64,000 bases of DNA, from positions 17,308,974 to 17,372,973 of the forward strand of contig NC_135259.1 of NCBI RefSeq assembly GCF_964204865.1, in the 5' to 3' direction. This document shows, piece after piece, positions 16,589 through 59,451 of the stretch. How positions within the stretch are numbered: the stretch's first letter is position 1; each line of letters opens with the position of its first letter. The translations under genes and the position numbers were made by a program. This DNA comes from Styela clava (taxonomy: Eukaryota > Chordata > Ascidiacea > Stolidobranchia > Styelidae). Below the pieces are notes generated by a model. That model searched no databases and was not told where the DNA came from. It worked only from the letters and a program-made list of their open reading frames with translations.

Positions 16589-19090
16589 CGATTTTTTATC
16601 ATAACGATAGGAAGAAAAATTCTAACAACAACAAAAACATAATAAAAAAAACAATCTATATGTTCACTACGTGCCCCAAAATAAAGAAACCAGAATCAAT
16701 TAACATTACATTTGTCTGGCAGAAACACTCAATATACATAAAATACAATCTCAGAGATTTGGACAAAGTCGATCAAACAATGATTTGACGCAAAGAGAGA
16801 AACTTGAAAATCCCCAAACGTCCCTAAAAAAAGTCCAAATGTTCTTTAAACTTGAAGCGCTTCCTTACACAGAGATTTGTTAAAAGCGAAGATGCGAGAA
16901 AATCATGAGGAGAACGAAAAGAATGTTTATTTCAATGAAATTTTCACTCGAACGAACCGTAGCAAACTTCAATCTTATGTTAAAGATACTATCTCAAACT
17001 TTTGTCGATATTATTTAAGATTTTCAACGAAAGAATGTATTTCGTTGACACCTTGAGGCTATGAAACAAAACTTTCAGTTGCAGACAGTATAGCATCAGG
17101 ATGAATTGAACGTCATAATTAGTCGTAGACCGATCTAACAGAAATGGTAATTTGATTTTCCACGGCTTCACCACGTAGCGAAGTAACAGTCATTTGTTAT
17201 TTTTGAAAAATAATAAAATGAATTCAATGTTTTTATATTGCAAAGCTTTAGCAAAGCAGGCTCTACTTTTATAGATTTCGCATTGCTTTTGCAACTCATG
17301 TACAACCCGCCGGATGTCATAAAATTATTCATCACACGAATTTCAAACATAAAGATGCTAGAATTGCATAGTCAAACAGGTCAATTTAAAGATTTATAAT
17401 TTAAAGAAGTTCGTCACTCAGGTCTAACAATAATCTATGTGTTTGTTTCAAAAAGATCATATATTATACATAAATCTGTCAAAACCACGAAACATTTCAT
17501 CAACGTACAAGGGTTCCACAATTTCATGAAATACGCCATCCATACAAATGTAAGTATCGTAATATATGTTTATGAATCAGGCAGTGCTTTATGCTTTGTT
17601 GTCTACATTCAATATCAGTAAAGGTACACCGACTGGGCCTTATAGTTCGGCGCGCCCGATGTATTAAAAAAAATATAAGCTATTTATTGACAGTGCACTT
17701 TATAATCAGGTGCGCTGTATGGTCCGCACAATACGGTACGTTTTCTTCAAATCCTCTTGAACCCGAAATTAAAATGGAAATTTTGCTGTTCTATTTTATA
17801 TCATGGAACACTGTTTATGAAATATGGGACGCTTGTCTACCACCCATCTTTTCAGTTAACTGCGGTGCCTTACCGTACCGGTACCGATGCGCGATCTTCG
17901 TATCTATATATTATAGCATTACACTCTTGTCGTAATAAATTATCCCCGATAGCGTTCACAGTAACAAAACGATGCAGTTATTGTATTCTTGTAAAAATTT
18001 CCACATTATCTTTTAAACATTATCGTATGAATTTATATTCAAATGATTAAAAATAAATCAAAAGTTGAATATTTATTTTTTGCCGCCATTTTTCTCAAAC
18101 TATGTTTGGTTACAGGAAAGGACTTAAAACCTGCTTATGGTGTTGTTTATGTTGTTTTCCGTTTCCCATTGTTGGATTGGAGATCTTTATACTTGGAATA
18201 CTAATTAATGACACTGACACATTTGAAACGGTGGGTGGAGCTGTCGGCTTTATAACTCTTTCCATTATTTATGTTTGTGCTGCATGTTGTATCGTCTATT
18301 GCGATATGAGAAAACAAAGAAAAACAAAACAGCGCTCTAATATACAGAGCGTCAGTGAAAACTTTCAAAATGGCAATCAGGAAATGCAAAATACTGCGCC
18401 AGATCCTGAAAACATTGATGAAAAATCCATGGCACTCACGCCTTTGCCAAATGCCTCAAGTCACCAAGCATCATCTTCACCCAGCAACAGTGTAAACTCA
18501 TTGACAATAAACTCTAGCAGATCTAGTACAAATCTCTATGATCTGCCACCACACGATTGTACGTATGTCACGCCACAAGTTGAAAATATTGATGCCACCA
18601 TAGAAAACGACGTAAATGGATATCCACAGCAGACTTCAATTGCTACCCAACCCTGTATGCATGTACCAGAACCAGTGTGTTTATATAAAGATATGTATTC
18701 CCCTTGCTCAGAACAAGAACGTAGTTGCAAAATCACATCGTCAAAAGATGAATATCCCAGCATGCCACCACCACCCTACTGTCTTTTTGTCAAAAGTTGC
18801 ATAGAGGATATAAGGTTCAAGGAATCACGGGAATCAGCCTCTTCCGAAGAACAACAAACTGGTTGCTCAGTATCGCAATCTAGTGGTAAAGACCCTCCTT
18901 GTTATGACGTAGCTATTTTGATGTAGAAAATGTTCCGTCAACGATGAATTTTTTGAAATATACATTTTGTTATATATTGTTGAATGATCCCCATACACAC
19001 CTCATTATTAAAATACGACATTGACTTTGTTTAAAAGAGTGGTTCCCAACTTTTTCGTTAAATTCCTCCGTTTGACTATTTTGGAACTGT
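16589..19090. repeat. Segmental duplication, copy 1 (family A gene with 1.5 kb upstream DNA)
   Basis: Aligns with 25932-28230. The first ~900 bp (to about 17490) are almost identical between copies. From there through the gene the copies differ at many sites. The upstream part is also related to DNA on the minus strand at 35352-36420, 45572-46620, 39560-40560, 50095-51110 and 55760-56170, so the 5' flank of family A genes travels with them. Confidence 0.8.
18102..18926 (+). CDS. Family A small membrane protein with PPxY tail (most complete copy)
   Basis: 274 residues and uninterrupted. The N-terminus is short and basic (FGYRKGLKT) with a Cys cluster (CLWCCLCCFPF). Two hydrophobic segments (about residues 14-36 and 48-70) are joined by an acidic loop (INDTDTFETV), then a basic stop-transfer stretch (RKQRKTKQR). 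The long polar tail is Ser/Asn-rich, with SSSPSNSVNSL and two PY motifs: MPPPPYCLF near residue 225 and DPPCYDVA at the C-terminus. PPxY motifs bind WW domains, for example in Nedd4-type ubiquitin ligases, and YCLF fits a YxxΦ sorting signal. A tetraspan identity is unlikely, as only two membrane segments are visible. The start ATG is followed by TTTGGTTACAG|GAAAGG, which also looks like an acceptor, so a spliced upstream first exon is possible, as in family B. Convergent with the family B gene at 21.0 kb. I do not recognise the family. Confidence 0.7.
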   Translation: MFGYRKGLKTCLWCCLCCFPFPIVGLEIFILGILINDTDTFETVGGAVGFITLSIIYVCAACCIVYCDMRKQRKTKQRSNIQSVSENFQNGNQEMQNTAPDPENIDEKSMALTPLPNASSHQASSSPSNSVNSLTINSSRSSTNLYDLPPHDCTYVTPQVENIDATIENDVNGYPQQTSIATQPCMHVPEPVCLYKDMYSPCSEQERSCKITSSKDEYPSMPPPPYCLFVKSCIEDIRFKESRESASSEEQQTGCSVSQSSGKDPPCYDVAILM

Positions 19091-19679
19091 TTATTCCTCC
19101 CGCATCGGGCATAAAAATCCCTTTATTTAATCAGTCCTCATTGCATCCTTAACTAGTGCTATGCGCGAGTCGCTCTGTCGCTTTCGTACAGTTTGTGTAG
19201 TCTATAATGTGGGATGTGTGCATAAATAGGTAATATAGTAAAAATAAAGTACTAAAGAATATTAGTAATACAACAGAAAATATAAAACTAAATTCCTCAC
19301 TGAGGAGAAAGTCCTCTTGGGTGGCGAGACGTGGGTAAATATATTGGTATTAGCAAACCTCAATGAGACGTTTCAGTTAAAATTCTCGTTGTTATTTCGA
19401 TTTTTTGTAAACATGATGGCATACATATAATATTAAAAATGAAACTAGTGTCCCATTTTATCTGAAGTTGAATAAGGCAAATAAGTATATATCAGTTTCT
19501 AACCAACTCGAATTGTTTTATTAAACACCATTGCACCATGCACCATTGAAAATTCGTCTGTGAAAATTTCTGTGTTGCCCTGTTTCTCCTGGTGCTCCAA
19601 GCACAATATGTTCTCCAACTTTTTATTTCAGGGCGGGGGTCAAGAAGGGAGGGTATTATTTTGTTATTAGCGATAAAAC
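19091..19679. other. 3' flank of family A gene, repeat-rich
   Basis: Begins with a dispersed repeat (AGTGGTTCCCAACTTTTT near 19040) that also lies downstream of the family A copies near 28181 and 34550, on the matching side of the stop codon. No exon supported. Confidence 0.4.
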
Positions 19680-21002: not shown

Positions 21003-21947
21003 TCAATACGAGCGAATAAAAAGTAGGGGTGTGGACTCGTCTTCGCCATCTTTTCCCGATTGGTGTGACGCAAATTCAGTTCCAGCGTTATTCGAATTTA
21101 TTTCGTCATAGTCCAATGTTGTTTCCGAACTTATAGTACTTCGCCAATTCATTTTTTCGTCCACTTTGGATTTCAAATTCTGACAAAATGATTTTAGTCT
21201 TTTGTAACAAATGCTGGCTCTTTCAAAGATATTGCATGTTAAGTTGTGTACATGTATATAAGCGACGGTACAGAAAAATACAACTAGGAACACAAGAGCC
21301 AATCCAACACCCATGAGCGTTACAGTTTCCCTATTGAAGCCAGCAATTGTGGTCGTTGTAACAATCAAGGCCAGATATACAATGATAAACATTGAAAAAC
21401 AAACAACCTTTCGACCTGAAATACGAAAAAAACAATATATATTAAAATATATGAGAGCGATGCTAATATATAAGAGTATAATGGAGTGGTACGCGTATAC
21501 AGTTACAGTCTTACACAGTATGCTGCCGGTACCCGCAGTGTTCACAACTGCAAGATCGCTAACTCAAAGATGAAATCGCTACAAGAAGCGCTATTTTTAA
21601 ATTTGATGACGTCATCACATACAAAAAGCGAATCTCTTAGACTCTCAGAGTGAACGAATCTGAAAATATTTTGTGCGTACCTCGTTCGTCAAAATGCGGA
21701 TATTCACACTCTGATAGGAAATAACTTATGTTATGATATTCATAATCAATAAATATTGTCATCTCCTATTTTAATTTAATATTTCCTTTAATTGAAAATT
21801 TGATTACAGAAACATGGTAAAATGCTACTTCAAAACGAGAGAAAAATTGACAGTTTTTTAGGCGTAATACATACGTCTCCAAACATATTGCTCATACTCG
21901 TACTGAGCCTGAAGCTCGTCATATTCTTCCATGGATTGTCCAACCAT
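21003..21947 (-). CDS. Family B small membrane protein, short-tail copy
   Basis: Two exons: 21875-21947 (ATG plus 24 codons and one base) and 21003-21415, joined in phase 1, giving 161 residues. Exon 1 encodes VGQSMEEYDELQAQYEYEQ, matching the 32-kb copy (MEEYYELQAQYGHGQ). Exon 2 has two hydrophobic segments separated by a loop GFNRETVTLMG, then a basic, Cys-containing region, and a short acidic tail with ISSETTLDYDEINSNNAGTEFA. It ends TPLLFIRSY, with no PPxY, so this copy lacks the long tail of its paralogues. Longer upstream reading in the same frame (to 21545) is intron. Likely integral membrane; function unknown. Confidence 0.65.
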
Positions 21948-25931: not shown

Positions 25932-28230
25932 CGATTTTTTATCATAACGATAGGAAGAAAAATTCTAACAACAACAAAAACATAATAAAAAAAACTATCT
26001 ATATGTTCACTACGTGCCCCAAAATAAAGAAACCAGAATCAATTAACATTACATTTGTCTGGCAGAAACACTCAATATACATAAAATACAATCTCAGAGA
26101 TTTGGACAAAGTCGATCAAACAATGATTTGACGCAAAGAGAGAAACTTGAAAACCCCCAAACGTCCCTAAAAAAGTCCAAACGTTCTTTAAACTCGAAGC
26201 GCTTCCTTACACAGAGATTTGTTAAAGCGCTTCCTTACACAGAGATTTGTTAAAAGCGAAGATGCGAGAAAATCATGAGAAGAACGAAAAGAATGTTTAT
26301 TTCAATGAAATTTTCACTCGAACGAACCGTAGCAAACTTCAATCTTATGTTAAAGATACTATCTCAAATTTTTGTCGATATTATTTAAGATTTTCAACGA
26401 AAGAATGTATTTCGTTGACACCTTGAGGCTATGAAACAAAACTTTCAGTTGCAGACAGTATAGCATCAGGATGAATTGAACGTCATAATTAGTCGTAGAC
26501 CGATCTAACAGAAATGGTAATTTGATTTTCCACGGCTTCACCACGTAGAGAAGTAACAGTCATTTGTTATTTTTGAAAAATAATAAAATGAATTCAATGT
26601 TTTTATATTGCAAAGCTTTAGCAAAGCAGGCTCTACTTTTATAGATTTCGCATTGCTTTTGCAACTCATGTACAACCCGCCGGATGTCATAAAATTATTC
26701 ATCACACGAATTTCAAACATAAAGATGCTAGAATTGCATAGTCAAACAGGTCAATTTAAAGATTTATAATTTAAAGAAGTTCGTCACTCAGGTCTAACAA
26801 TAATCTATGTGTTTGTTTCAAAAAGATCATATATTATACATAAATCTGTCAAAACCACGTAACATTTCGTCAACGCACAAGGATTCTACAATCTCCTGAA
26901 ATATGTCATACAGATGTAATTATCGTTATATATGTTTATGAATCAGGCAGTGCTTTATGCTTTGTTGTCTACACCAAAATCAGTAACGGTACCGGCTGCG
27001 CCCCTAGTTCGGCACGACCGATGTATAGAAAAAAAACCTATAACCAATTTATTGACAGTGCACTTTATAATCAGGTGCGCTGTATGGTCCGCACAACACG
27101 GCACTTTTCTCCAAATCCTCTTGGACCCGAAATCACTATGGAAATTTTGCTGTTTCATTTTATATCATGGAACACTGTTTATGAAATATGGGACGCTTGT
27201 CTGCTTCTGTAGTGTCCATCTATATTTGCAGTTAACTGCGGTGCCTCTCTAAAGCCTTACCGTACCGGTAACGATACGCGACATTCGTGTCTATATATTT
27301 TAGCAATACACTCTTGCTGTAATAAATCATCCTCGATAGCGTTCACAGTAACAAACGATACAGTTATTGCTTTCTTGTAAAATTTTCCACATTACCTTTT
27401 AAACATTATCGTATGAATTTATATTCAAATGATTAAAAATAAATCAAGAGTTCAAATGTTATTTTTTCCCGCCATTTTTTTCAAATTATGTTTGGTTACA
27501 GGAAAGGACTTAAAATCTGCTTATGGTGTTGTTTATGTTGTTTTCCGTTTCCCATTGTTGGTTTGGAGATCTCTATACTTGGAATACTAATGATGACCCT
27601 GGCACATTTGAAAGGATGGGTGGAGCTGTCGGCCTAATAACTCTTTTCATCTCTTGTTTTTGTGCTACATGTTGTATTGTCTATTGCGATCTGAGAACCC
27701 AAAGAAAAACATCGCTCTAATATACAGAGCGTCAGTGAAAACGTTCAAAATTGTTGAAACAAAACGTTGAAAATATTGATGCCACCAAAAAAAACGACGT
27801 AAATGGATCTTTACAGCAGACTTCAATTACTACCCAACCCTGTATGCATGTATCTGAAGCAGTGTGTTTATATGAAGATTCCTCTTGCTCAGAACAAGAA
27901 CTTCGTTGCAAAATGACAACATCAAATGATGATTTTCCTAGCATGCCACCACCACCCTACTGTCTTTTTGCCAAAATTTGCATGAGGATCGAAGGTTCAA
28001 AGAATCAGTCTCTTCTGAGGAACAACGAACTGAATGCTCAGTATCGCGATCCAGTGGTAAAGATCCTCCCTGTTACGAAGTAGCCATTTCGATGTAAAAA
28101 TGTTCTATCAAAGATGGAATTTTTGAAATATATATGTTGTTATATATTGTTTAATGATCTTGATTTCAAAATCCCCATAGTGGTTCCCAACTTTTTTCTT
28201 TGAATTCCTCCGTTTCACTATTTTGTGAAA
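25932..28230. repeat. Segmental duplication, copy 2 (with family A pseudogene)
   Basis: Pairs with 16589-19090. It contains a 28-bp local tandem repeat (unit GCGCTTCCTTACACAG...) at about 26198-26255 that copy 1 lacks. Confidence 0.8.
27488..28096 (+). pseudogene. Family A pseudogene
   Basis: Starts like the 18.1-kb copy (FGYRKGLK.CLWCCLCCFPF) but a one-base deletion in the loop after the first hydrophobic segment shifts the frame. A stop follows RTQRKTSL, and about 200 bp of the Ser-rich tail are missing between the FQN-like and VENIDAT regions. The later part still encodes SMPPPPYCLFAK but is frameshifted again before the final DPPCYEVA-type motif. Not able to make the full protein. Confidence 0.8.
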
Positions 28231-32149: not shown

Positions 32150-33092
32150 ATGGCTGGAACTTCCATGGAAGAATATTACGAGCTTCAGGCACAGTACGGG
32201 CATGGGCAAGCTATTCTGAGAAGTATGTATTACGCTTCGAATAATTTTGTTTCTGTTCTTTTCTCCTGCTTTGAAGTAGCATTTAACCATGTTTCTGTAA
32301 TCGAATTTTCAATCATAACAAACTATGAGATGACGAAATATTTATTGATAATGAATATCATAAAACAATTTATTTCTTATCAGAGTAGTAATATCCGCGG
32401 TATACGTTCAAAGCATTGGTTTCCTATAATGGAAGAGTGGGGAATATCGTGTTCATAGATATTGTATCAATTCTTATTTTCGTATTTCAGGTCGAAAATT
32501 GACAACAGGAAATATAATTTGCCTCGTACTGTTTATTTTATTAGCACTGGCCTCGATTAGTGCACCAGCTATAATTAGTGGCTTCGATAGGATAACTGTA
32601 GCGATCATGGGTCTCGGATTTGCTCTTGAGTTTATAGTTGTATTTGTCTACATGGTCGCTTATATGCATGCACACAAAGTGAACGAAAAAAACAAATCGT
32701 CAGAATTTCCACAAAATGAAATTCGAACAAATTCATATCTAAATGTTGTCTCAAACCAACTACGCCCCTTCCCAACTCTTCGTCAGCCATCTCGTTCTCA
32801 TTCATTGGACTTGCCACGATGTAGCAATATAAGTACTATAAGTTCGGAATCACCATTGGACAATGAAGAAATAAATTCGAATAACGCTGGTATTGCGTTT
32901 GCCATGCACCAACCGGGAGAAGATGACGAATGCATGACGATACAACATTCAGATATAAGCCTGACTTCAACCAGCATTCGTATTGAAGACAACTGTTTGA
33001 GCAGAATTTTAAGAAGCACTGATAGCAACTGTATTCAACAACAAAGTATCTCAAAGGATCTCAGCCCCGATAATACGCCATCTTACGACTAG
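32150..33092 (+). CDS. Family B small membrane protein, tail cut off by a hAT MITE
   Basis: Exons 32150-32222 (ATG plus 24 codons and one base) and 32491-33092 join in phase 1 to give 224 residues. Exon 1 reads AGTSMEEYYELQAQYGHGQ. Exon 2 has two hydrophobic segments (LVLFILLALASISAPAII and IMGLGFALEFIVVFVYMVAY) around the loop SGFDRITV, then a His/Lys stretch and a Ser-rich tail with STISSESPLDNEEINSNNAG. The reading frame runs to SPDNTPSYD and hits a TAG that is the first codon of the inserted transposon at 33090. In paralogues the frame continues NLELTDVVC and ends in PPPY, so this copy has lost its last ~75 residues and the final PPxY. Convergent with the family A gene at 34.7 kb. Confidence 0.65.
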
Positions 33093-33498
33093 GGCTGGGC
33101 ATTTCGAATCAAATATTCGAATAGTAAATTATTCGAATCGGTTCAGGGCAAAATTTCGAATCGCCACCATCTTGTTTTTTTTTTACTTTCTGCCAATGGT
33201 CGAGGTGAATTTCTCAATTTTTTTTATTGAAGCCATATTTTTTCTAACGCCATTGTGACATATGACTATTTTCTGTAGTGAGTTATTGATAAAACGTTTT
33301 TTTTTATAGAGTATGGACGCTCAGTAATTCGTCTGAGTAATGTATTCTATGTTTTCCGTAATTCATTTGTTGACAGGTCCAATTAAAATAAAATAGTTGC
33401 TTACTATTATATATTTCCCAAGTATTCGAGATTCGATTCGAAAAAAAATATTCGATTCGATTCTGAGATCACCAGGTATTCGAAAATGCCCAGCCCTA
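33090..33498. mobile_element. hAT-type MITE inserted in a family B coding exon
   Basis: 409 bp. Terminal inverted repeats TAGGGCTGGGCATTTCGAA and TTCGAAAATGCCCAGCCCTA, with internal repeats of ATTCGA. Flanked by an exact 8-bp duplication CTTACGAC (33082-33089 and 33499-33506), the hAT signature. The 3' part is copied at 43710-43975 by the 10.5 kb duplication. Related elements with GGGCTGGGCATTTTGAATC ends lie at about 36770-37226 and 47318-47775, each holding a nested family P element. Confidence 0.9.
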
Positions 33499-33764
33499 CT
33501 TACGACAACCTTGAACTTACTGATGTCGTGTGTGTTGACTCAGAAAAGTCGTCCATCTTCTTTCAACGCAAATGGCTGGAACCTACTTTGAGTTCTAACG
33601 AATATATATACACTGCCTCGTTTACACCAGCAGAAATTGTCAGCGAACAAAATATCGCCTACGAAACGTATGAATCTACTCCTCCTTCCTACTTCGTATT
33701 TGCTCGTGTTGGGAACGAAGCTTTTAGTTTATTTCTTCAATTAATTTCACGCCACGCATTATGA
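33486..33764 (+). pseudogene. Orphaned family B tail fragment with transposon-supplied ATG
   Basis: Continues the interrupted family B frame after the MITE: YDNLELTDVVCVDSEKSS, then RKWLEPTLSSNEYIYTAS, FTPAEIVSEQ, and STPPSYFVFARV, ending at 33764. The MITE right end gives ATG CCC AGC CCT in frame, so an open 92-codon frame exists that starts in transposon DNA and keeps a PPSY motif. No evidence of expression. Confidence 0.6.
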
Positions 33765-33878
33765 ACTATAAACATACAAATATAAAGGCAAGACTTACCA
33801 TGTAGAAAGTTTATTCGGCAAACTCTTAATTAGACGAGTACATGCTTATAGTTTCAGAACTATATTATAAAATATTAT

Positions 33879-36768: not shown

Positions 36769-36769
36769 G

Positions 36770-41394: not shown

Positions 41395-43620
41395 ATGCCA
41401 ACGATTGGTGGACCCGGCGGAATTCATGATACGCATTCGAGGCAACAAGCGGACTGGAGTCGGCAAGGTATGCTTATAAAAATATCTAGTTTGTTCGTGT
41501 TCAGAACTGCTTTGTAATTAATTATTATAATTTAAACTTGATCGAAGTTTTTTTCTTAACAAAAATATCAAACCTGTATCCAGTGGTGAGCTGTAGCCGG
41601 AACGGCGTTCCGGTTGTTGGACATTTCACTGCATTTGCGTTTCTGTTGTTGAAATAAAATTGTGGTACAAAAAGTCTAGTTTCTCTGGTAAACTTAGTTA
41701 TTAATTTATGTTTTGTTAAATCATAATTCTTAATCTTTTTACGTCACATCACGCAAATAAGTAGTACAGCAGTAAGGTGTAATAGATGTTTCGCCGACCT
41801 TTGACCACATGAAAATTCATTCAATACCTTTCTAATAGTAAGATTTGTATTGAATTGCTATGAATACTCTTATAATTTTACACAAACATATTTCATATTA
41901 TAATTTCTTCGCAGTTCATTGCAGTTCTTTGAAAGTCCGCGTCGTGTTGTGAATATATTACAGTTTTGCGAATTAGGTGCGTTCCGGTTGTTAACGATTT
42001 TTTCAGCTCATCACTGCCTGTATCTACCTACTGCTTGATACTAGGTAGCGAATTGTCGAGTAAGTCATCGGTGCTGATTCGTTCAGTTGTGATTTCAGAA
42101 ATTAAACCTGCTCTTGCAATAGGGTAATCCACTGACTCCGGAGATCGTTTCATTTAGATTCAACAATTGGATCTCCGCTCGATGAGGCCCTTATTGTCAG
42201 TAGGCCTTTAAGTCCGTCTGTCTGAGACAGTTCTGAATGAAATTTCTCAAGTGGGTTATCCTATCACCCTAGTATTGTGCGTTGCAGTGAAAATTCGAAA
42301 TAGTGTTTTGTTCCATGGCAGCAGTAAAAATGCGCGTCGATTGTTGGAAAATTTCGAATTTACTCTTACGTTTTGCCAATTTATGGTAAACGTGGACGAA
42401 AATTAAAATTCCGGGAACGCTACCCCTTGCGGAATAAACTACTCTTTCGAACAAGTCCTTCATCATCTCGATACGCCATAAATTGGGGAAGCCTTAGGGT
42501 TTTCAGTGAAAATTATTTCATTTGTTATACTCCAGTATACTATATCACTCACTCGAGAACGTCAACGTAACGCGCAGTGCTCAAAGTGAACTGGCAATTT
42601 CGGCGACCTGCTCACTTAATAACGCTGCCGTGCTAGATGCGCAAGTTTCTATGGATGGTAACCGGTCGCCTGTGTGAGGACTTCAACTACCAGCAGAGAT
42701 CCTGGGCGCCTACCAGCTTGTTTATGGATGTATGTCACTGAAAGTTTCTTTTTCATTTCAGGTGAATGCGATACAAAAGAAACATCTTGCATCTTGTGTG
42801 GGTTTCTCCATTTATACGGTGTTTATTTTTCTGCCAACTATGATTTGCGGTTTTAACGTGGGAACTATTATTATACCCTTTTGGAACTTGTTTATATTGT
42901 TAATAGGAGTTTTTTGCGCCATTGGTCGTAACATTCATGATAAATGTGCGCAAAAAACTCAAAGTTGAAAATTATTTATTGTTTGTATTGGCACAATTAC
43001 AAGCAAACGGAATTCAAACCAATGCATCTCCTACTGCTGCTCGATTCTACATACGTGCTATCTCATATCCTCCCCGGCGCTTTCATACAGGTCCCGGGTC
43101 TTTAGAAGTGAATCCGAGGATTTTTAAAATAAATGCTATAAGTTCGGAATCAACACAAGAAAATGAACATATAAAATCGAATAATGTAATTACTCGGTTT
43201 GCCGAACCTAAACCAAGCGAAGCTGATGGAAATCATTCGGACGAAAAAGTGATTAGAAAATGGAATAGTATTTGTACAAAAGATGATCCTTCTTCGTCAA
43301 GAAGTTCAAGCAGAAATTCATGTAGCATTGATAGTAACCGTCGTCCATTGAGAAGCTCTATCGAATTAATTACATCGAATCTCAGCCCCAATAATCCACC
43401 TAAATACGACAACCTTGAAATTACTGATGTCGTGTGTGTTGATTCAGAAAAGTCGTTCATCACATTTCAACACAAATGGCTGGAACCTCCCTTGAGTTCT
43501 AACGAAGATATATACACTGCCTCGTTTACACCAGCAGAAATTGTCAGCGAACAGGAACAAAGCATCACCCCAGATACTAATGAGTCGAGTCCACCTCCGT
43601 ACTCATCCTTAGAAAACTGA
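41395..43620 (+). pseudogene. Family B copy with stop and frameshift
   Basis: Exon 1 41395-41467 (PTIGGPGGIHDTHSRQQAD, phase 1) and exon 2 from 42762. Exon 2 codes for a hairpin of two hydrophobic segments (FSIYTVFIFLPTMICGFNV and FWNLFILLIGVFCAIG) but hits TGA at 42966-42968. The paralogue at 53 kb has CGA there. Four extra bases just downstream shift the frame. The tail stays open in the shifted frame to 43620, with SSSRSSSRNSCS, NNPPKYDNLEITD and SSPPPYSSLEN. Exon 1 phase also does not fit the frame of exon 2, as in the 53-kb copy. Probably non-functional. Confidence 0.65.
41581..42016. mobile_element. hAT-type MITE in family B intron
   Basis: 436 bp. Ends CAGTGGTGAGC and GCTCATCACTG with sub-terminal GGCGTTCCGGTTG / GTGCGTTCCGGTTG, flanked by the 8-bp duplication CCTGTATC (41573-41580 and 42017-42024). 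The 58-kb family B intron lacks it. Confidence 0.9.
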
Positions 43621-43709
43621 AAATAACAGAAAACGAAAAAATACTTATTGATCAGACAACAATTTTTTTAAAGAAACTTTTAATTACTTGTTTTCAGTAT
43701 GTAAATACT

Positions 43710-43975
43710 AAGCCATATTTTTTCAACGACATTGTGACATATGACTATTTTATGTAGTGAGTTATTGATAAAACGTTTTTCTATAGTGTATGGACGCTCA
43801 GTAATTTGTCTGAGTAATGTATTCTATGTTTTCCGTAATTCATTTGTTGACAGGTCCAATTAAAATAAAATAGTTGCTTACTATTATATATTTCCCAAGT
43901 ATTCGAGATTCGATTCGAAAAAAAATATTCGATTCGATTCTGAATTCACCAGGTATTCGAAAATGCCCAGCCCTA
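43710..43975. mobile_element. 3' part of the duplicated hAT MITE
   Basis: Lacks the left inverted repeat; retains the right end ATGCCCAGCCCTA. It was created by the duplication breakpoint, not by a new insertion. Confidence 0.85.
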
Positions 43976-44241
43976 CTTACAACAACCTTGAACTTACTGA
44001 TGTCGTGTGTGTTGACTCAGAAAAGTCGTCCATCTTCTTTCAACGCAAATGGCTGGAACCTACTTTGAGTTCTAACGAATATATATACACTGCCTCGTTT
44101 ACACCAGCAGAAATTGTCAGCGAACAAAATATCGCCTACGAAACGTATGAATCTACTCCACCTTCCTACTTCGTATTTGCTCGTGTTGGGAACGAAGTTT
44201 TTAGTTTATATTTTCAATTAATTTCACGTCACGCATTATGA
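43963..44241 (+). pseudogene. Second orphaned family B tail fragment
   Basis: 92 codons from the MITE-derived ATG: PSPTYNNLELTDVVC, RKWLEPTLSSNEYIYTAS, STPPSYFVFARV. Differs from 33486-33764 by a few substitutions (D to N, A to V, L to Y). Still open. Confidence 0.6.
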
Positions 44242-44352
44242 ACTGTAAACACACATATATAAAGGCAAGACTTGCAATGTAGAAAGTTTATTCGGCGAAC
44301 TCTTAATTAGACGAGTATATGCTTATATACAGAACTATATTATAAAATATTA

Positions 44353-44576
44353 TGTACTTCCGTAGTATGTGAACTAAGATGGCGGGCACTGGAACGTAGT
44401 ATGTGTTGTGTACCAGGATTGGGCCATATTCCCAGGTACAAATACCACGGTAGTCACTTGGTTAGTTTTCAAACTCATAATAGAACTAAAATAAGGAAAA
44501 TTGGACTGAAATTATGGCCTAACCTGATACACATACTATGTTCAGGTGTCCGCCATCTTAGTTCACTTACTGCGGC
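44353..44576. mobile_element. Family P MITE (duplicate of 33879-34100)
   Basis: Same arms and flanks; carried by the 10.5 kb duplication. A deletion of about 250 bp follows it relative to copy 1. Confidence 0.75.
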
Positions 44577-44908
44577 CAAATATTTGTATATAGACGTGAA
44601 CACGTTGTGATGAATGAAGTGCTAAAAATTGTTATTGTACATACTTTTTGACAGTGTCATTGAATATATACTTTTGAAGTTTAAAATTTAGATTGTGCCC
44701 CAATTTTATGCCCAATGAGGGAGGAATAAAAAGTTCCAAAATAGTCAAACGAGGGAATTCATCGAATAAAGTTGGAAACCACTTTTTCAAACAAAGTATA
44801 TGCCGTATTTTATTAATAGGGCGCGTATGGGAATTTTGAAATCAAGCTTATTCAACAATATATAACAATATATATATTTCCAAAATTTCATCGTTGACCG
44901 AACATTTT

Positions 44909-45571
44909 CTACATCGACATAGCTACTTCGTAACAGGGAGGATCTTTATCACTTGATCGCGATACTGAGCATTCAGTTCGTTGTTCCTCAGAAGAAACTG
45001 ATTCTGGCGATTCCTTGAACTTTATATCCTCAATGCAAACTTTGGCAAAATGACAGTAAGGTGGTGGTGGCATGCTAGGATTATTATCCTTTGGTGGCGT
45101 GACATACGTGCCAACGTGTGCTGGGGGATCATAGAGATTTAGACTAGAGCTGCAAGAGTTTATTGCCAGTGAGTTTGTACTGTTGCTGGGTGAAGATGAT
45201 GCTTGGTGACTTAAAGCATTTGGCAAAGGCGTTCGTGCCATACATTTTTCATCGATGTTTTCGAGATCTGGCGCAGTATTTTGCATTTCTTGATCGCCCT
45301 TTTGAACGTTTCCACTAACGCTCTTTATATCAGAGCACTGTTTCGTTTTTCTTCGTTTTCTCAGTAGGCAATAGTCGAAAAAACATATACCACAAACAAC
45401 AGAGCTGAAAAGTGTTATAGGGGTGGCGACTGTACCCACCCATTCAAGTGTGTCAGGGTCATCAATTAGTATTTGAAGTATAAAAACCACAAAATAAGCG
45501 AGGGCAAACGGAACTAATAATAAACAACACCCTGAACAGGCTTCTTTAAGTCCTTTCCTGTAAACAAACAT
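44909..45571 (-). CDS. Family A small membrane protein with PPxY tail (duplicate)
   Basis: 220 residues, same layout as 34689-35351: two hydrophobic segments, basic RKRRKTKQ, Ser-rich tail, MPPPPYCHF and DPPCYEVAMSM. By eye the two genes differ at eight coding sites, five replacing (L/V, L/P, G/V, K/E, R/K) and three silent. Where they differ this copy often agrees with the 18.1-kb gene (TPLP, CIEDI), so copy 1 has changed more. Family and function unknown; a WW-domain partner is expected from the PY motifs. Confidence 0.7.
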   Translation of the reverse strand: MFVYRKGLKEACSGCCLLLVPFALAYFVVFILQILIDDPDTLEWVGTVATPITLFSSVVCGICFFDYCLLRKRRKTKQCSDIKSVSGNVQKGDQEMQNTAPDLENIDEKCMARTPLPNALSHQASSSPSNSTNSLAINSCSSSLNLYDPPAHVGTYVTPPKDNNPSMPPPPYCHFAKVCIEDIKFKESPESVSSEEQRTECSVSRSSDKDPPCYEVAMSM

Positions 45572-46620
45572 AATTTGAGAAAAATGGCGGAAAAAAATAA
45601 CATTTGGTCTTTTGATTTTTTTTTAATCATTTAAATATAAAGCCCTACGATAAAGTTTAAAAGGTAATGTGGAAAATTTTACAAGAAAGCAATAACCGTT
45701 TTGTTTGTTACTGTGAACGCTATCGGGGATAATTTATTACAACAAGAGAGTAATGCTAAAATATATAGACACGAAGATTGCGCATCGGTACCGGTACGGT
45801 AAGGCACCGCAGTTTGCTGAAATAATAGGTGGGCACTACAGAAGCATACAAGCGTCCCATATTTCATAAACAGTGTTCAAAGATATGAATAAAACAGCAC
45901 AATTTTCATTGTAATTTCGGGTCCAAAAGGATTTAGATAAAAAGTATCGTATTGTGCAAACCATGCAGCGTACGTGATTATAAAGTGCACTGTCAATAAA
46001 TTGCTTGCATAGATTGTGTTCTTTTTCATACATTGGGTACGCCGAACTATGAGGTCCAGTCGGTACCGTTACTGATTTTGAGTGTAGACAACAAGCATAA
46101 AGCACTGCCTGATTTATAAGCATATATAACGATACTTACATTTGTATGACAAATTTCATGAGATTGTAGAATCCTTGTGCGTTGACGAAATGTTACGTAG
46201 GTTTGACGTATTTTATATAATAATTATATATAATCCTTTGAAAATAAACAAATATTTTATTGTTAGACCTGAATAATGGACGCCTTTACTCTTCATAACG
46301 ATCTCTTGCAGTTCTGTATATGCAATACATATTTATACATAAACCGCATTTTGCATAATCTAACGACTACATGCGGGCTGTTCAGGAGTTGCAAAGGCAA
46401 TGCGGAATCAATTAGGGTAGAGCCTGCATTGCTAAAGCTTTGCGATATGAAAACATTGAATTCATTTTACTATTTTTCGAAAATAAATGATTTCCTCTGC
46501 GTTTTTTAGCTGTGGAAAATCAAATTACCATTTCTGTTGGATTGGTCTACATCTAATTATAATGTCCAATTCATTCTGATGCTGTACTCTCTGCAACTGA
46601 AATTTTTTTTTCATAGCCTC
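45572..46620 (-). repeat. Family A 5' flank (duplicate)
   Basis: Same as 35352-36420; extends further with CTTGAGGCTATGAA-complement sequence lost from copy 1. Confidence 0.6.
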
Positions 46621-47317
46621 AAGGTGTCAAGTCAAAGAAACACTCGCTTTCGTTGAAAATTCTAATAAATATCGACAAAAATCAAAGATAATATCACTAA
46701 CAAGAGATTGAAGTTTGCCACAGCTCATTTGAGTGAAAACTTATGTTGAAATAAACATTTTTTATGTTCTCTTGATGATTTTCACGCATCTTCGCTCTTA
46801 ACGAACCCCTGTTCAAGCAAGCGCTTCAAGTGTTAGGGACGTTTAGACTTTTTTAGTGACGTTTGGGGGTTTGCAAGCTTCTCTCTTTGCGCCAAATCAT
46901 TGTTTGGTCGACATTGTCCAAATCTCTGAGATTAAAGTTTATGTATATTGAGTGTTTCTGCCAAACAAATGTAATGTTAACTGTTATGATTTATATTTAA
47001 AATGAAACAATTTTTTCGTGGAACCTTGTTTCTCCGTGCGTTGATCAAATTTCTTATATTTCAAAGGTTTTTTTTTCTTTACATAGCCCTGGTCAATCAC
47101 CACAAGCACGAAAAATGAAATTGGATAAAAGATCCCAATGCTCCTTGATTCATTGTAGATCTCTTCCTATACTATTAAGAATCTATTTGACATTTGCCCT
47201 CATGATTCTATGTATTGCTTTTGTTAGTTTGATCTGACATAGACTTGCCACGTAATAAAGGTCTTTTTAAATATGGAGCCTAAATCAAGCCAAATCCTGG
47301 TATGACGAGGGCTGGGC
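46621..47317. other. Intergenic, duplicated block
   Basis: Includes about 330 bp absent in copy 1 that match family A upstream DNA at 16800-17040 in reverse orientation, so copy 1 suffered the deletion. No gene. Confidence 0.5.
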
Positions 47318-49337
47318 ATTTTGAATCGAATATTATGTTAGATCATCGGTTCTTGACCAGAGGACCATGGCCATACATTTTCACATGAGCCAAAAGGCCA
47401 TAAAAAAAATCGCTGGAGTTATTGATGAATTTGTATAATTTGATTGAAGTAGCAATGAATGATGATGCTTTTTTGAAACTGTGTAGAAATTTTCCATTTG
47501 ATTGAAAAAACTGGCAGTGTCTATTTTTGCGGAAAGTATTTTGGTACTCCCGAAGTATGAGAACCAAGATGGCGGACATCGAAACGTAGAATGTATACCA
47601 GGTTAGGGTTAGGCCATATTTTTTTTCCAATTTATTTTATATTAGTTCTATTACGAGTTCAGGGACTAGCCAAGCGACTCCCGTAGTTTTTGTACCTGAA
47701 ATTATGGCCATTCGAGATTCAATTCGAAAAAATATTCGATTTGGGTCTGAAATCATCAAGTATTCGACAATGCCCATGTTTATCGCGGATGAGTTTTCCG
47801 AGTATTTTAGATTTAGTTTCATTACCTTGTTGGATGCTCGGTTTCATAAACATTTTTGTCTATTCTGTTGCTTTTTTAAAGATAATAGTAATATCGCAAA
47901 ACATCAAATTCATTATTATAATGGCATAACAGTTTAACGAGAATATCGGTCGGAGACCGAAGATTTATCGATCGAGCGATAATTACCTAATTAATAACTC
48001 GCTAATTATACGACATAATTAACCTAATCTATAGGCTTCTGGTCCGAGATATGATGCATGCACATGCAAAATTTGGAGCAGATTCAAGCTCGCCTTCGTG
48101 AGATATCGCGTTCATCTAACAGACAGACAAATACCCATCAACATACTTACAGATCTTAAGATCGATAAGTAACTAGTTACTTGTATATATATGGGAGTGC
48201 ACAACATGACTTGAGATCGTAAACGCTGCGTTGCAATAATTGCACAATAGACGGAAACCATAATGAGCCAATACTTAGCAATCAGTTAAATCAGTGACAA
48301 ATTGCGGTTATTAATATCTGTTCTGTTCTGAAATATGAAAATGGACGCAATAGTTAGATGATATTAAATGGAAGTTGTTTGATTATCATATTTAAATTTA
48401 TTTACATTTCTACTGCGCTTCTTTGACTGCTAACTGCTGAACACTTGTCGAAATGTACATAACGCAATAATGCATCGATTATGATATGAACCACAACTAA
48501 AATAGTTTTGTAGAAAAATTACTCTAAGCTTCATGGTCGATAAATAGTGGAGGCTAGATTACTAGTTTGAAGCGTGTTGTATACTAGTTTAATATAGTGA
48601 GCTGAATAGCATATCGTCACGCAGACAACTAAATTGCGTAAGTCATTTTACGAAATTTTGAGAAAAACGTATAAAAAACTTTCTCATGAAATTGTCATGC
48701 CATCGAGAGTCAATAATTTCCCACGGTTTAATTTTTTAGTCGTAGCCGGATTCAAATTAATTTGTATGACGCAGGTATGTGACGTAATAATGTCGCACTA
48801 TCACTTAATGAGAAATCTGCCAAGTGCACACTTTCCTATGCTGTAGTGTCAATTCAAATTTATAAGCGCTAAGCTAGAATCTAAGGTGCAAGAATTCAAA
48901 ATTATTCTGCCGGTGTTATTTTGCCATTGTGAAGTCACAATTGTCTTGCTGTAATAATAATAATTCAATATGACGAAACAATTGCAGAATGTGCATGTCA
49001 CACAAAATCTCCTTAGGTTTCGAAATTCTTGGGTCAAAATCAGAGTTAACAGACAGGTGCGCAGCATTACCTAAAAAAAACTATTTTATATAAAAAAGGT
49101 TAAAATCGCCAAAAAAGAAAAAAGCAATTCGGTTTTCAGCCTGACGATATTACGTATATTATTTTTATTTGTCCATAGTGGGATTTATATTTTCATGTTG
49201 TGAATGTAATACGCCGGACCCATCCTTGTGCTTTTCGGTCTATAGCAGGTTTCCCAATCTGTATACTACGACACTGCTATACCTCGAATAAGCGCGGCAA
49301 AAATTCAGTGTTAATAATAAATGCTTACACTTAGGAA
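47318..49337. repeat. Duplicate of 36770-38787
   Basis: Carries the hAT MITE with nested family P element, the CTGT-type repeat at 47937-48175, and the inverted-end element at about 48613-49147. Confidence 0.8.
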
Positions 49338-49512
49338 CTCAGCCTCGATAATCCACCATCTTACGATAACCTCTATGAACTTACTGATGTAATTAGTGTT
49401 GATTCGACGCAAATGGCGGGAACCTTCCTTGAGTTCTAACAAAGATTATATATTCTGCTTATATTATATATTCTGCTTTGTCTACACCAGCAGAAATTGT
49501 TAGCGAACAAAA
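49338..49512 (+). pseudogene. Family B tail relic (duplicate)
   Basis: Same relic as 38788-38962, with the NPPSYDNL remnant followed by frameshift and stops. Confidence 0.8.
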
Positions 49513-51933
49513 GATCGCCTCTTATTGATCCTTACTTAAAACTAAATATAATTTTTGGGAGCGAGACTTTAAACTTCCATTTTTAATCAATTTCAAGTCA
49601 CGTATTTCAAACTATATATAACGCCCAGGCTTAAAAAGTAGCACGTTTATTCGGAAAACTCTTAATTATGAAGAGTATCTGCTTATAGTTTCAGAACTAT
49701 ACTATAAAATATCTTTATATAGACGTGTTAATATAAGTATGTCGAAATGCATGTAGGTGTCTATGACCACCTGTAACTGGGTCCGAAGACCAATATATGT
49801 GTTGTCGCAATATTAAACAATAGATCAGTATACAAATTACGATGCCACTTTGGTATGCGATCTCACTTGCGTAACGTTTAATTTCACGAAGACATTTTTA
49901 TAGAATCCAAACCCTAACCAAAATCACCGAGATCACACAATCGCATACCAAAGTAGCACCTATATAGTATTCGCTTTTTGTGAGGCAATAGCGTCTAAAA
50001 TAAAGCGCTAAAAATTGATATTACGCATACATTTTCGACAGTGTCATTAAAAATATACTTTTGGCGTTCAAAATTTAGAATGAGTATATACTAGGTTTCT
50101 TGTGTCAAGAACTTGCCATTTGCAATTTTATAAGGCCTACCAAAAAGCGTGCGCGTGGGACAAAGTTTGGGAAACTCTTGTATAGTACCCTTGACTAATA
50201 CTGCTTTGAGTGTAGGCAACAAAGCGTAAAGCAGTGTCTGACCATATATTAGGCACACTGGATTATAATGTACACGATCGATTTTGAGAAAAGTGATTTT
50301 GAAGTGTGGTGAGTAAAATACGGAATATACCCAAACATCCATCAACAAAACCACAATTTAGCGAATCAATCCATATGTACACTACGTATCTATAATTATG
50401 GTTCTTGACAATGCGGCGAAAATACACGATAAATGCATTATTGGGAATCCAACCTATTCCATTCAAAACAGATAAAACGATACTTACATTTGTATGGCAT
50501 ATTTCATGAGATTGTAGACCCCTTGTACGTTGGCGAAATGTTACGTAGGTTTGACGGATTTTCTATATAATATTATGATCTTTTGAAACAAACAAATAAC
50601 TATTGTTAGACCTGAGTAATGGATGCCTTTACTCTTCATAACGATATATTGCAGTTTTGTCTATGCAATGTCTATCTATAAACTAAAATCGTTTTTTTGT
50701 ATAATTTCATGACCTCACGCGAGCTGTACAGAGCAAAGGCAATGCGCAATCTATAAAAGCCTAGCCTATTTCTCCACAGCTTGAAAAAAACAGCAAATTC
50801 GTTTCCTATTTTCCAAAAATTACTGATGGCTGTTACTCCTCTGCGTGGTTTAGTTGTGTGAAATCAATTTCTTATTTCTGCTAGATCGGTCTACATATAA
50901 TTATAATGTCCAATTCATCCTGATGCTGTCTGCAACTGAAAGTTTTGTTTCATAGCCTCAAGGTGTCAAGTCAAAGAAATACACTTTTACTGGTAAAAAT
51001 ACTGGTAAAACTAGAGATAAGATCTTTCACAAGAGATTGAAGATTGCCAAAGTTAGTTCGAGTGAAATCTTTGTTGAAATAAACATTTTATAAATATTCC
51101 TATTGATTTTTCTCGCTTCGTTGGTCATTCACGATTAAGGGGAGATTTAAGGGTTTGTAGGGAATTTGCCAGTTTCTCTCTTTGTGCTAAATCATTATCA
51201 GCATCACTTAAACAAATTTTATTGTGTTGTGGCACATCAGTGAGGTCTAAATGTTGATGAGGCACACATGAAATAAAGAACAATTTCACGCTATGTTCAT
51301 GTCCCGAACGACGAAAAAACTGAGTGAGAGGGATTCACAATATACGTTTAACTTCTGCCCACTGCCCTAAACTGTTATTTAACACGCTTCGAACTATAGT
51401 AATCTACTCTCGCCTATATCTAACGCCCATGCAAAGTACAGCAATAGTATATCACCAAATCGCAAATAATTTCATAATTATACTTCACAATAAATAATCG
51501 AGCTTTTTAGCAGCAGACAATAATCTAACAATTTACGGTAATCAAAATACCTCGAGGCTTTGTCTCAATATCGAAGAAAAAACGGCTAAAAACTCATTTA
51601 GTTGTGGTTCAAATCAGAGTCGATATATTGCGTTCGACATTTTAACTAGTGTTTATCAGTTAGCAGTCAAAGAAGCGCAGTAGAAATGTAAATAAATTTA
51701 AATACGATGATAAAACAACGTTCATTTAATATCATCAAGCTATTGCGTCCATTTTTATATTTCAGAACTTTCTTCTAAACGCAAGTGGCATTGGCCACGC
51801 AATGAAAGTCGATAGATTATAATATTTTTGGCTGTCTTAGTTGTTTAATAATATATATTACCTACGTTACATCTGAAATTAATGGTGTAATGTCAGTATA
51901 GCATAAAATCCTTAAGAATTCTGCTGATTACCG
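49513..51933. repeat. Duplicate of 38963-41394
   Basis: A/B spacer, family A 5'-flank relic on the minus strand (50095-51110) and family B 5' flank (51110-51933). Confidence 0.75.
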
Positions 51934-54135
51934 ATGCCAACGATTGGTGGACCCGGCGGAATTCATGATACGCATACGAGGCAACAAGCGGACTGGAGTC
52001 GGCAAGGTATGCTTATAAAAATATCTAGTTTGTTCGTGTTCAGAACTGCTTTGTAATTAATTATTATAATTTAAACTTGATCGAAGTTTTTTTCTTAACA
52101 AAAATATCAAACCTGTATCCAGTGGTGAGCTGTAGCCGGAACGGCGTTCCGGTTGTTGGACATTTCACTGCATTTGCGTTTCTGTTGTTGAAATAAAATT
52201 GTGGTACAAAAAGTCTAGTTTCTCTGGTAAACTTAGTTATTAATTTATGTTTTGTTAAATCATAATTCGTAATCTTTTTACGTCACATCACGCAAATAAG
52301 TAGTACAGCAGTAAGGTGTAATAGATGTTTCGCCGACCTTTGACCACATGAAAATTCATTCAATACCTTTCTAATAGTAAGATTTGTATTGAATTGCTAT
52401 GAATACTCTTATAATTTTACACAAACATATTTCATATTATAATTTCTTCGCAGTTCATTGCAGTTCTTTGAAAGTCCGCGTCGTGTTGTGAATATATTAC
52501 AGTTTTGCGAATTAGGTGCGTTCCGGTTGTAACGATTTTTTCAGCTCATCACTGCCTGTATCTACCTACTGCTTGATACTAGGTAGCGAATTGTCGAGTG
52601 AGTCATCGGTGCTGATTCGTTCAGTTGTGATTTCAGAAATTAAACCTGTTCTTGCAATAGGGTAATCCACTGACTCCGGAGATCGTTTCATTTAGATTCA
52701 ACAATTGGATCTCCTTGGAGACCCTTATTGTCAGTAGGCCTTTAAGTCCGTCTGTCTGAGACAGTTCTGAATGAAATTTCTCAAGTGGGTTATCCTATCA
52801 CCCTAGTATTGTGCGTTGCAGTGAAAATTCGAAATAGTGTTTTGTTCCATGGCAGCAGCAAAAATGCGCGTCGATTGTTGGAAAATTTCGAATTTACTCT
52901 TATGTTTTGCCAATTCATAGTAAACGTGGACGAAAATTAAAATTCCGGGAACGCTACCCCTTGCGGAATAAACTACTCTTTCGAAAAAGTCCTTCATCAT
53001 CTCGATACGCCATAAATTGGAAAAGTCTTAGGGTTTTCAGTGAAAATTATTTCATTTGTTACTCCAGTATACTATATCACTCACTCGAGAACGTCAACGT
53101 AACGCGCAGTGCTCAAAATGTACTGGCAAATTCGGCGACCCGCTCACTTAATAACGCTGCCGTGCTAGATGCGCAAGTTTCTATGAATGGTAACCGGTCG
53201 CCTGAGTGAGGACCTCAACTATCAGCGGACATCCTGGGATGGATGGATGTATGTCACTGAAAGTTTATTTTTCATTTCAGGTGAATGCGATACAAAAGAA
53301 ACATTTTGCATCTTGTGTGGGTTTCTCCATTTATACGGTGTTTATTTTTCTGCCAACTATGATTTGCGGTTTTAACGTGGGAACTATTATTTTCCCCCTT
53401 TGGAACTTGTTTATATTGTTAATAGGAGTTTTTTGCGCCATTGGTCGTAACATTCATGATAAATGTGCGCAAAAAACCCAAAGTCGAAAATTAAACAGAG
53501 TATTGGCACAATTACAAGCAAACGGAATTCAAACCAATGCATCTCCTACTGCTGCTCGATTCTACATACGTGCTATCTCATATCCTCCCCGGCGCTTTCA
53601 TACAGGTCCCGGGTCTTTAGAAGTGAATCCGAGGATTTTTAAAATAAATGCTATAAGTTCGGAATCAACACAAGAAAATGAACATATAAAATCGAATAAT
53701 GTAATTACTCGGTTTGCCGAACCTAAACCAAGCGAAGCTGATGGAAATCATTCAGACGAAAAAGTGATTAGAAAATGGAATAGTATTTGTACAAAAGATG
53801 ATCCTTCTTCGTCAAGAAGTTCAAGCAGAAATTCATGTAGCACTGATAGTAACCGTCGTTCATTGAGAAGCTCTATCGAATCAATTACATCGAATCTCAG
53901 CCCCAATTATCCACCTTCATACGACAACCTTGAACTTACTGATGTCGTGTGTGCTGATTCAGAAAAGTCGTTCATCACATTTCAACACAAATGGCTGGAA
54001 CCTTCCTTGAGTTCTAACGAAGATATATACACTGCCCCGTTTACACCAGCAGAAATTGTCAGCGAACAGGAACAAAGCATCACCCCTGATACTAATGAGT
54101 CAAGTCCACCTCCGTACTCATCCTTAGCAAACTGA
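51934..54135 (+). CDS. Family B membrane protein with PPxY tail (53-kb copy)
   Basis: Exon 1 51934-52006 matches the other family B first exons in length (73 nt) and phase 1. Exon 2 starts after an acceptor at 53281 and is open to 54135: two hydrophobic segments (FSIYTVFIFLPTMICGFNV, LWNLFILLIGVFCAIG), basic RKLNR, a Ser-rich tail, YPPSYDNLELTD, and SSPPPYSSLAN at the end. Joining the two exons directly gives the wrong frame and a stop at 53373-53375. Relative to the 58-kb copy, two bases are missing near the start of exon 2. An in-frame ATG at 53239, within what would be intron, allows a 298-residue protein without exon 1. So the gene either uses a different first exon or start, or is recently broken. 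The tail lacks about 23 residues present in the 58-kb copy. Confidence 0.5.
52120..52554. mobile_element. hAT-type MITE in family B intron (duplicate)
   Basis: Same ends and the same flanking CCTGTATC (52112-52119, 52555-52562) as 41581-42016, so it was present before the 10.5 kb duplication. Confidence 0.9.
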
Positions 54136-54227
54136 AAATAACAGAAAACGAAAAAATACTTATTGATCAGACAACAATTTTTTTAAAGAAACTTTTAAAT
54201 ACTTGTTTTCAGTATGTAAATACTAAG

Positions 54228-56170: not shown

Positions 56171-56197
56171 GCTTATATGTATCAGCAAAAATAATAG

Positions 56198-58184: not shown

Positions 58185-59451
58185 ATGCGTTCAACTAGAA
58201 AATACGGGGGATTCCATGGCACACATTTGAGGCATCAAGCGGGCCGGAATCGGCGAGGTATGCTTGTAAAAATATCTAGTTTATTTGTTTTCAGAACGGC
58301 TTTGTAATGAATGTACATTTGTACTTAATCAAAGTTTTGTTCCTAATAAAAATATCACAAATTCACCTTACTACTTGATTGCCAACCATGCCGATTCGTT
58401 CAATTGGGATTTAAGAATTTTTTATGCAAAAGAAATTTTCACCGAAGTGAACAATTTTTAATCTGATTCTATACTTTATGATTAAATATACCGCTTTGAG
58501 TGTATATTGACTGAATGCTTCTTTTTAATTTCAGATGGGAAATGTACAATAGCAAAATGCATTGGGGTCCCGCTTTTTCTTTCCTTTTATGTGGTGATGG
58601 GTTTTGTGCCAGCTTTTATTTTCGGTTTCAACGTGGGAACTATTATTTTCTCGATTTTATCCTTGTCAATATTGTTAATTTCAGTGTTGTTGGACATTCG
58701 CATTTACATTCATAATAAATGTACGAAAAATCCAACATGTCTTGTATTAAATAGGATCAATTTGTGTTGCAAACGAGTAAACTCACTTTGTCCAACCCTA
58801 AGTTCATCAAAAAACAGCGAATTGCCAAAATTACGAGCAAACGGAACTCGAACCAATCCATCTCCTATTGGTATCCTAACCCAAATACGTGCTATCTCAT
58901 ATCCGCCCCAGCCTTTTCATACAGGTGCCGGGTCTTTGGAATTGAATCCGCGAATTTGCAACATAAATGCTATAAGTTCGGAATCAACACAAGGAAATGA
59001 ACATATAAATCCGAAAAATGTGATTACTGGCTTCGCCAAACCTAAACCAAGCAAAGCAGATGAAAAACATTCAGACGAAAAAGTGATTACAACATCGAAT
59101 AGTATTTGTACAAATAATGATCCTTCTTCGTCGAGAAGTTCATGCAGAAATTTAAGTAGCAGTGATAGCAACTGTCTTCCATCGCATAGCTCTATCGAAT
59201 CGAGTGCCTCGAATCTCAGCCTCGATAATACACCTTCATACGACAACCTTGAACTCACTGATGTCGTGTGTGTTGATTCAGAAATGTCGTCCATCACATT
59301 TCAACGCAAATGGCTGGAACCTTCCTTGAGTTCTAACGAAGATATATACACTGCCTCGTCTACACCTGCAGAAATCGTCATGGAACAAGAACAAAGCACA
59401 TCTGAGACTAATGAGTCAAGTCCGCCTCCCTACTCATCTTTAGAAGACTGA
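58185..59451 (+). CDS. Family B membrane protein with PPxY tail (best intact copy)
   Basis: Exons 58185-58257 (73 nt, phase 1) and 58535-59451 join to give 329 residues. Exon 1 encodes RSTRKYGGFHGTHLRHQAG. Exon 2 opens DGKCTIAKCIG. Two hydrophobic segments follow (about residues 37-58, LFLSFYVVMGFVPAFIFGF, and 63-84, IFSILSLSILLISVLLDI). Then come a basic Cys-containing stretch (INLCCKRVNSLC) and a Ser-rich tail with SSRSSCRNLSSSDSN. Near the end come TPSYDNLELTDVVC, RKWLEPSLSSNEDIYTAS and the C-terminal SSPPPYSSLED. PPPY fits WW-domain binding; YDNL and YSSL fit YxxΦ sorting signals. Likely an integral membrane protein with a cytoplasmic tail. The second motif is TPSY, not PPSY, in this copy. 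Family not recognised. Confidence 0.7.

Follow-up and report, generated by a model that had tools for sequence, protein, structure and literature searches.

The systems nearest by mechanism to the locus described here would be yeast Sna3p and Drosophila Commissureless (Comm), neither of which has detectable sequence kinship to it. Sna3p spans the membrane with two transmembrane (TM) segments, and its cytoplasmic C-terminus carries a PPAY that binds the Nedd4-type ligase Rsp5p and decides sorting, according to an excerpt of PMC2171029. In Comm, the PY motifs PPCY and LPSY act additively with Nedd4 ligases, and the protein sends Robo1 to endosomes (excerpt of PMC12101832). In fission-yeast wtf drivers, cytosolic PY motifs that bind Rsp5/NEDD4 ligases set the toxic state; these motifs sit at the N-terminus of multi-transmembrane proteins, and alternative transcription yields both toxin and antidote (PMC10721834, in its excerpted text). 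We analysed a window of 64,000 nucleotides (nt) from the Styela clava genome (C13:17308974-17372973), in which an array of about 41 kilobases (kb) holds two families, A and B, of predicted membrane proteins. The array is real, local and fast-turning, its two families are orphans, and we see an even chance that their products act with a Nedd4-type WW-HECT ligase, as its PY-tailed adaptors or co-sorted cargo.

The first-pass annotation had placed intact family A copies at 18.1, 34.7 and 44.9 kb and a broken one at 27.5 kb; the open reading frames (ORFs) are present, and reading the frames confirms this account:

18102..18926, + strand: A18, open frame of 274 amino acids (aa), with a hairpin and a tail that bears PPPPY and PPCY
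27488..28094, + strand: A27, broken by a frameshift and a large deletion, with both PY motif sequences readable in the DNA
34689..35351, - strand: A35, open frame of 220 aa with two PPxY
44909..45571, - strand: A45, open frame of 220 aa with two PPxY, 97.7% identical to A35

Family A frames start at ATGTTTG, and the start codon of A18 sits within acceptor-like TATGTTTGGTTACAG/G, which makes the N-terminus uncertain. Of three candidate exons found in an upstream scan, two have ATG and GT in each of the four copies. We rejected 17591-17709 as a first exon (broken in 3/4 copies) and list the following, without claiming it:

17817..17899, + strand: candidate first exon of A18, phase 2, with the weak donor GTATCT

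Given here in A18 coordinates, this candidate has an open, in-phase frame in the three intact copies, A18, A35 and A45, and a broken one in A27; by eye, the donor in the other copies reads GTGTCT. It stays a candidate because its donor is weak.

Family B is homologous at 21, 32, 43, 53 and 58 kb as first proposed, but fewer of its five copies are usable than that implied. Its proteins had also been taken to begin in the listed ORFs, and this proved wrong: a separate exon, overlooked at first, precedes all five. Exon 1 is 73 nt long (24 codons and one base) and is followed by a GTATG donor in 5/5 copies, and exon 2 follows a TTTCAG acceptor and opens just ahead of the first membrane helix. An open ATG-73 nt-GTATG arrangement occurs at five sites on both strands of the window, exactly the five B copies (21947-, 32150+, 41395+, 51934+ and 58185+):

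21875..21947, - strand: B21 exon 1, 73 nt, phase 1, donor GTATGT
21003..21415, - strand: B21 exon 2, hairpin and short tail without PPxY; spliced product of 161 aa
32150..32222, + strand: B32 exon 1, 73 nt, phase 1, donor GTATGT
32491..33092, + strand: B32 exon 2, ending in NTPSYD and then TAG, the first three bases of a transposon; spliced product of 224 aa
41395..41467, + strand: B43 exon 1, 73-nt form, with the hairpin-frame ATG at 41426
42762..43620, + strand: B43 exon 2, broken by a stop at about 42966 and a frame change between TM2 and tail
51934..52006, + strand: B53 exon 1, 73-nt form out of the hairpin frame; the ATG at 51965 is in frame, phase 0
53281..54135, + strand: B53 exon 2, encoding the hairpin and a tail that bears PPSYDNL and PPPYSSL
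58185..58257, + strand: B58 exon 1, 73 nt, phase 1, donor GTATGC
58535..59451, + strand: B58 exon 2, encoding the hairpin and a tail that bears TPSYDNL and PPPYSSL; spliced product of 329 aa

A 2-nt indel relative to B58 puts the 73-nt exon of B43 and B53 out of the hairpin frame. B53 is open through a later ATG in exon 1 or an ATG before the acceptor, giving 298 or 294 aa. Judged by its predicted frame, B58 is thus the only plainly intact B copy, and B53 is conditionally open, needing another start.

Hydropathy gave two regions in A18, A35, A45, B21 and B32. The windows of B53 overlap (residues 23-72) and those of B58 form a single 57-residue span (28-84), so that the two predicted helices of B53 and B58 rest on alignment and length. 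The family A loop of about 10 residues has a K/R count of 0, with 3 K/R ahead of TM1 and 6-7 past TM2; this basic stretch accompanies the two hydrophobic regions in each of A18, A35 and A45. These three copies and B53 carry two PPxY each, and B58 carries one plus a TPSY. In 5000 tail shuffles, the PPxY count was reached at a rate of 0.28% for A18, 0.14% for A35, 0.08% for A45, 0.02% or 0.10% for B53 (according to its start form) and 2.4% for B58. Of the plan first described for both families, the PPxY tail holds for A18, A35 and A45 and for two of the five B copies, B58 and B53. It fails in B43, whose PY motifs lie behind a stop after TM2, in B32, which is cut at TPSY, and in B21, where a motif scan found no PPxY.

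Set beside the known systems, the array proteins resemble Sna3p in being small and in having two TM segments with a C-terminal PPxY, by hydropathy and motif in A18, A35 and A45 and with predicted helices in B53 and B58. They differ from it in their longer tails, mostly with two PY motifs, and in their genes forming a local array. The initial statement that no named family has this layout had missed Sna3p, going by the excerpt of PMC2171029. The likeness to Drosophila Commissureless, which is single-pass, lies in a membrane adaptor with two PY motifs, and PPCY is common to Comm and family A. NDFIP and LAPTM4/5 are likewise PY-tailed membrane partners of Nedd4 ligases and have more membrane segments, and TMEM51-type proteins combine two TM segments with a long tail that has PSYE-like motifs.

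No Pfam family scored above its cut-off in 12 scans over the nine A and B copies, with B21, B32 and B58 rescanned spliced. The top sub-threshold match was Mucin15 on the Ser-rich tail of A18 (E 0.00066; 19.7 bits, with the cut-off at 27), and the Commissureless model PF15957 reached E 0.13 on A18 (12.9 bits, under a cut-off of 27). PF01679, which we take to be the Sna3/Pmp3 family, was not among the matches up to E 10, or up to E 1 in the spliced scans; in both, HMMER filters drop most very weak matches. The same scans of A and B copies gave no match to TMEM51 (PF15345), although weak matches can be filtered out, and no NDFIP or LAPTM family. No similar chain was found in the PDB (best E 2 for A and 0.6 for B). 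The families thus stand as unrecognised, as first described, with no strong match to a known multi-pass family in the Pfam and PDB searches. Between the two families, the profiles aligned with an hhalign probability of 8.9% over 21 TM1 columns (alignments of 3 and 4 rows); their layout is alike, but at this value we do not claim a common ancestor.

Six-frame searches of the genome (376.6 Mb, 379 contigs) returned nine matches for A18 and eight for B58 (both at E up to 0.01) and six for B32 (E up to 1). All 23/23 lay inside the window, so the local part of the expansion claimed by the first-pass annotation holds. As far as searched, both families appear restricted to this locus. Because the search scored best candidates only and B21 was not among its queries (A18, B58 and B32), distant members elsewhere may escape it. 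The 40 kb of flank held no neighbouring A or B array (top match E 0.34). In viral_contigs, neither B58 nor alignment A1 had a relative (for the alignment, 34 stretches fitted a pattern and 0 were confirmed), and a viral origin is rejected on that ground. A literature search by title, over part of the matching titles, found no paper on this array.

In the adaptor reading that we prefer, both protein ends would be cytosolic and a short loop, of about 10 residues in A, would join the two membrane helices into a hairpin. The Ser/Asn-rich tail, bearing its PY motifs close to the end, would bring in the ligase, while the hairpin would pair with a membrane partner; the pair would then be ubiquitinated and sent to endosomes and lysosomes. 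The motifs are compatible with the earlier proposal that the tails serve as WW ligands, and the B motifs PPSYDNL and PPPYSSL have the PPxYxxL form, which binds Nedd4 in ENaC (excerpt of PMC2582799).

Comparisons among copies point to constraint on the coding sequence of family A. The flanks of A18 and A45 differ at about 17% of sites and both frames are open; their coding indels are of 3 and 165 nt, whereas flank indels are multiples of three in 2/16 cases. When neutral evolution was simulated at 17.3% divergence (substitutions alone), 1.5% of 2000 frames stayed open. In the same simulation the tail had 34 changes against 47.4 expected (standard deviation (sd) 5.5; P 0.01), with P 0.13 at 14.5% divergence. 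The ratio of nonsynonymous to synonymous divergence (dN/dS) between A18 and A35 was 0.78 overall (0.50-1.29) and 0.40 in the tail (0.24-0.73), and A tails in general gave 0.38-0.40 (intervals within 0.23-0.73). The nonsynonymous rate of the tail was also below the divergence of the whole 5' flank (p 0.015). We read the reading-frame constraint in A as clear, the tail constraint as shown and the PY motifs as kept. For family B we counted dN/dS from the acceptors onward in four pairs. The tail value lay below 1 for B58/B32 (0.59; 0.35-0.92) and B53/B32 (0.53; 0.31-0.93), and the B tails thus appear to carry some constraint, in two of four comparisons. The borders between head and tail in both families were set after the alignments had been viewed, and the pairs are not independent.

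Several results weigh against the adaptor reading. Three of the five B copies have no in-frame PPxY tail. The tail of B58/B53 diverges at the pace of the flank (88/633 against 66/503 sites, p 0.73), and tail dN/dS is not below 1 in B58/B53 (0.70; 0.44-1.19) or B32/B21 (0.76; 0.43-1.25). In family A, the nonsynonymous rate of the tail is not below that of the near flank (p 0.28), and A35/A45 are too alike to tell (dN/dS 0.47; 0.06-1.90). Moreover, WW domains outside Nedd4 ligases bind PPxY too.

The alternative that survives best, doubtful in our view, is that these are fast-evolving recognition or arms-race proteins. Here selection would act on the hairpin, which would meet a changing counterpart in the membrane (a ligand, a receptor, a pathogen factor or a sibling copy), whereas the PY tail would be a fixed module for disposal or signalling. 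The first 82 codons of A18/A35 have a dN/dS of 1.98, against the tail value given above, and 28/48 TM residues differ between the two proteins. Nonsynonymous differences in the A head exceed those in the tail (p 2e-5), and those in the hairpin exceed the divergence of the flanks (p 0.002 for the whole 5' flank and 9e-5 for the near flank). In the simulation at 17.3%, the hairpin had 38 changes against 27.9 expected (sd 4.4; P 0.02), and at 14.5% P was 0.0005. Likewise, B58 and B53 differ at 24/73 sites in exon 1 and 69/204 in the hairpin, together 93/277 against 66/503 in the 5' flank (p 4e-11), with 17/97 at the intron start and 30/220 in the 3' flank.

This pattern, however, holds for just two of the four comparisons, A18/A45 and B58/B53, in which the hairpin has changed faster than its flanks; A18/A27 and B32/B21 lack it. 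In A18/A27 the head (90.8% identity) shows no excess over the near flank (91.0%) or the tail (86.6%), A27 being a pseudogene. B32/B21 show the reverse, with exon 1 (79.5%) and head (73.3%) more conserved than the 5' flank (65.5%) and the tail (60.4%). The head dN/dS intervals of family A reach 1 (1.03-5.46 for A18/A35 and 0.96-5.57 for A18/A45), while the B head values of 0.85-0.97 have intervals that include 1 in all four pairs. The late choice of head and tail borders also tells against an arms race. In addition, dS in the B58/B53 head is high (0.46), and a mosaic descent of this fast head is possible on account of that high hairpin dS, although it is weakened by an intron start that diverges less than exon 1 and hairpin. 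From these comparisons, selection on the faster B heads is not established.

Rather unlikely, in our estimate, is that A and B are ordinary ligase cargo with no adaptor role, degraded through their own PY motifs and with a hairpin that serves another function. PY-tailed membrane proteins can indeed be substrates, as the excerpt of PMC2582799 describes for ENaC, but no result here tells substrate from adaptor.

It seems still less probable that the copies are dying or non-coding repeats whose frames are open through recent duplication, not function. Damage and recent copying are evident at the locus: A27, B21, B32 and B43 are damaged, a transposon has landed at the B32 tail, and two tandem units of about 10.5 kb each have pieces that are 96.5-98.8% identical.

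33090..33498, strand not assigned: 409-base-pair (bp) hAT-like non-autonomous element with terminal inverted repeats TAGGGCTGGGCATTT and 8-bp target duplication CTTACGAC
33499..33764, + strand: severed distal B32 tail (with PPSY), beyond the 409-bp element
38734..38963, + strand: B tail fragment
43976..44181, + strand: copy of the severed B32 tail, carried along in the tandem duplication
49284..49513, + strand: B tail fragment, a duplicate of the one at 38.7 kb
33230..43712, strand not assigned: tandem duplication unit 1
43710..54227, strand not assigned: tandem duplication unit 2

The 409-bp element, putatively hAT on the basis of its 8-bp duplication, abuts the TPSYD codons of B32, and its first bases form the stop codon. 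Additional B tail fragments lie at 33.5, 38.8, 44.0 and 49.4 kb. The tandem duplication accounts for A35/A45 and B43/B53 as near-copies, and part of the copy count is therefore recent copying. Decay alone, however, fits poorly with the A18/A45 frames, both open with triplet indels only between flanks that differ by 17%, where 1.5% would be expected open. It fits poorly, too, with the 73-nt exon and donor kept in 5/5 B copies, and with the dN/dS of the tails, which is under 1 for A and for two of the B pairs.

We regard as very improbable a self-contained recognition or selfish system in which changing hairpins would be checked by ligase-recruiting PY tails. With tail-less sisters (B21, B32) beside tailed forms (A, B53, B58), its layout would parallel that of the wtf drivers, where a harmful membrane protein can be made harmless through its PY motifs (excerpt of PMC10721834); N-terminal PY motifs, multi-transmembrane proteins and alternative transcription are features of wtf.

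The surroundings of the array hold other features. Upstream, on the + strand, lie exons of a class C G-protein-coupled receptor, at 1868-2209 in the window and at 1411-1839 and 6655-7071 in the preceding segment L026 (C13:17298974-17308973), with Pfam matches to 7tm_3 (E 5.6e-25), ANF_receptor (4.6e-18) and NCD3G (1.6e-13). Downstream, a 998-aa frame of a non-LTR (long terminal repeat) retrotransposon, encoding endonuclease and reverse transcriptase domains, occupies L027:2851-5844 (- strand; about 66.9-69.8 kb on the window scale). Two cysteine-rich frames with CSKQRGEKCGG lie at L028:5616-5939 and 1147-1377 (both - strand), the first of them IGFBP-like at E 0.0079, below the Pfam cut-off. 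A dispersed repeat recurs at 9394-9528, 14593-14777, 33899-34083, 44374-44558, 55055-55177 and 60203-60325 of the window and also in the flanks, and several copies translate to variants of WRTPERSMCTRLGLGHNF. An inverted repeat at 2969-3635 has 304-nt arms that are 93% complementary with 59-nt spacing, and has relatives at 23.8 and 56.2 kb. Finally, a coiled-coil-like open frame at 62447-62704 (- strand) may be an exon that belongs to another gene; its match to APG6_N (E 0.00091) is below cut-off.

In summary, the locus shows a transposon and small indels removing the PY tail copy by copy. If the proteins are made, A and B would be an unrecognised family pair, with a changeable membrane part and a kept, ligase-recruiting tail combined in a single gene, and the array would offer a directly testable case of the origin and turnover of PY-tailed adaptors at one locus.

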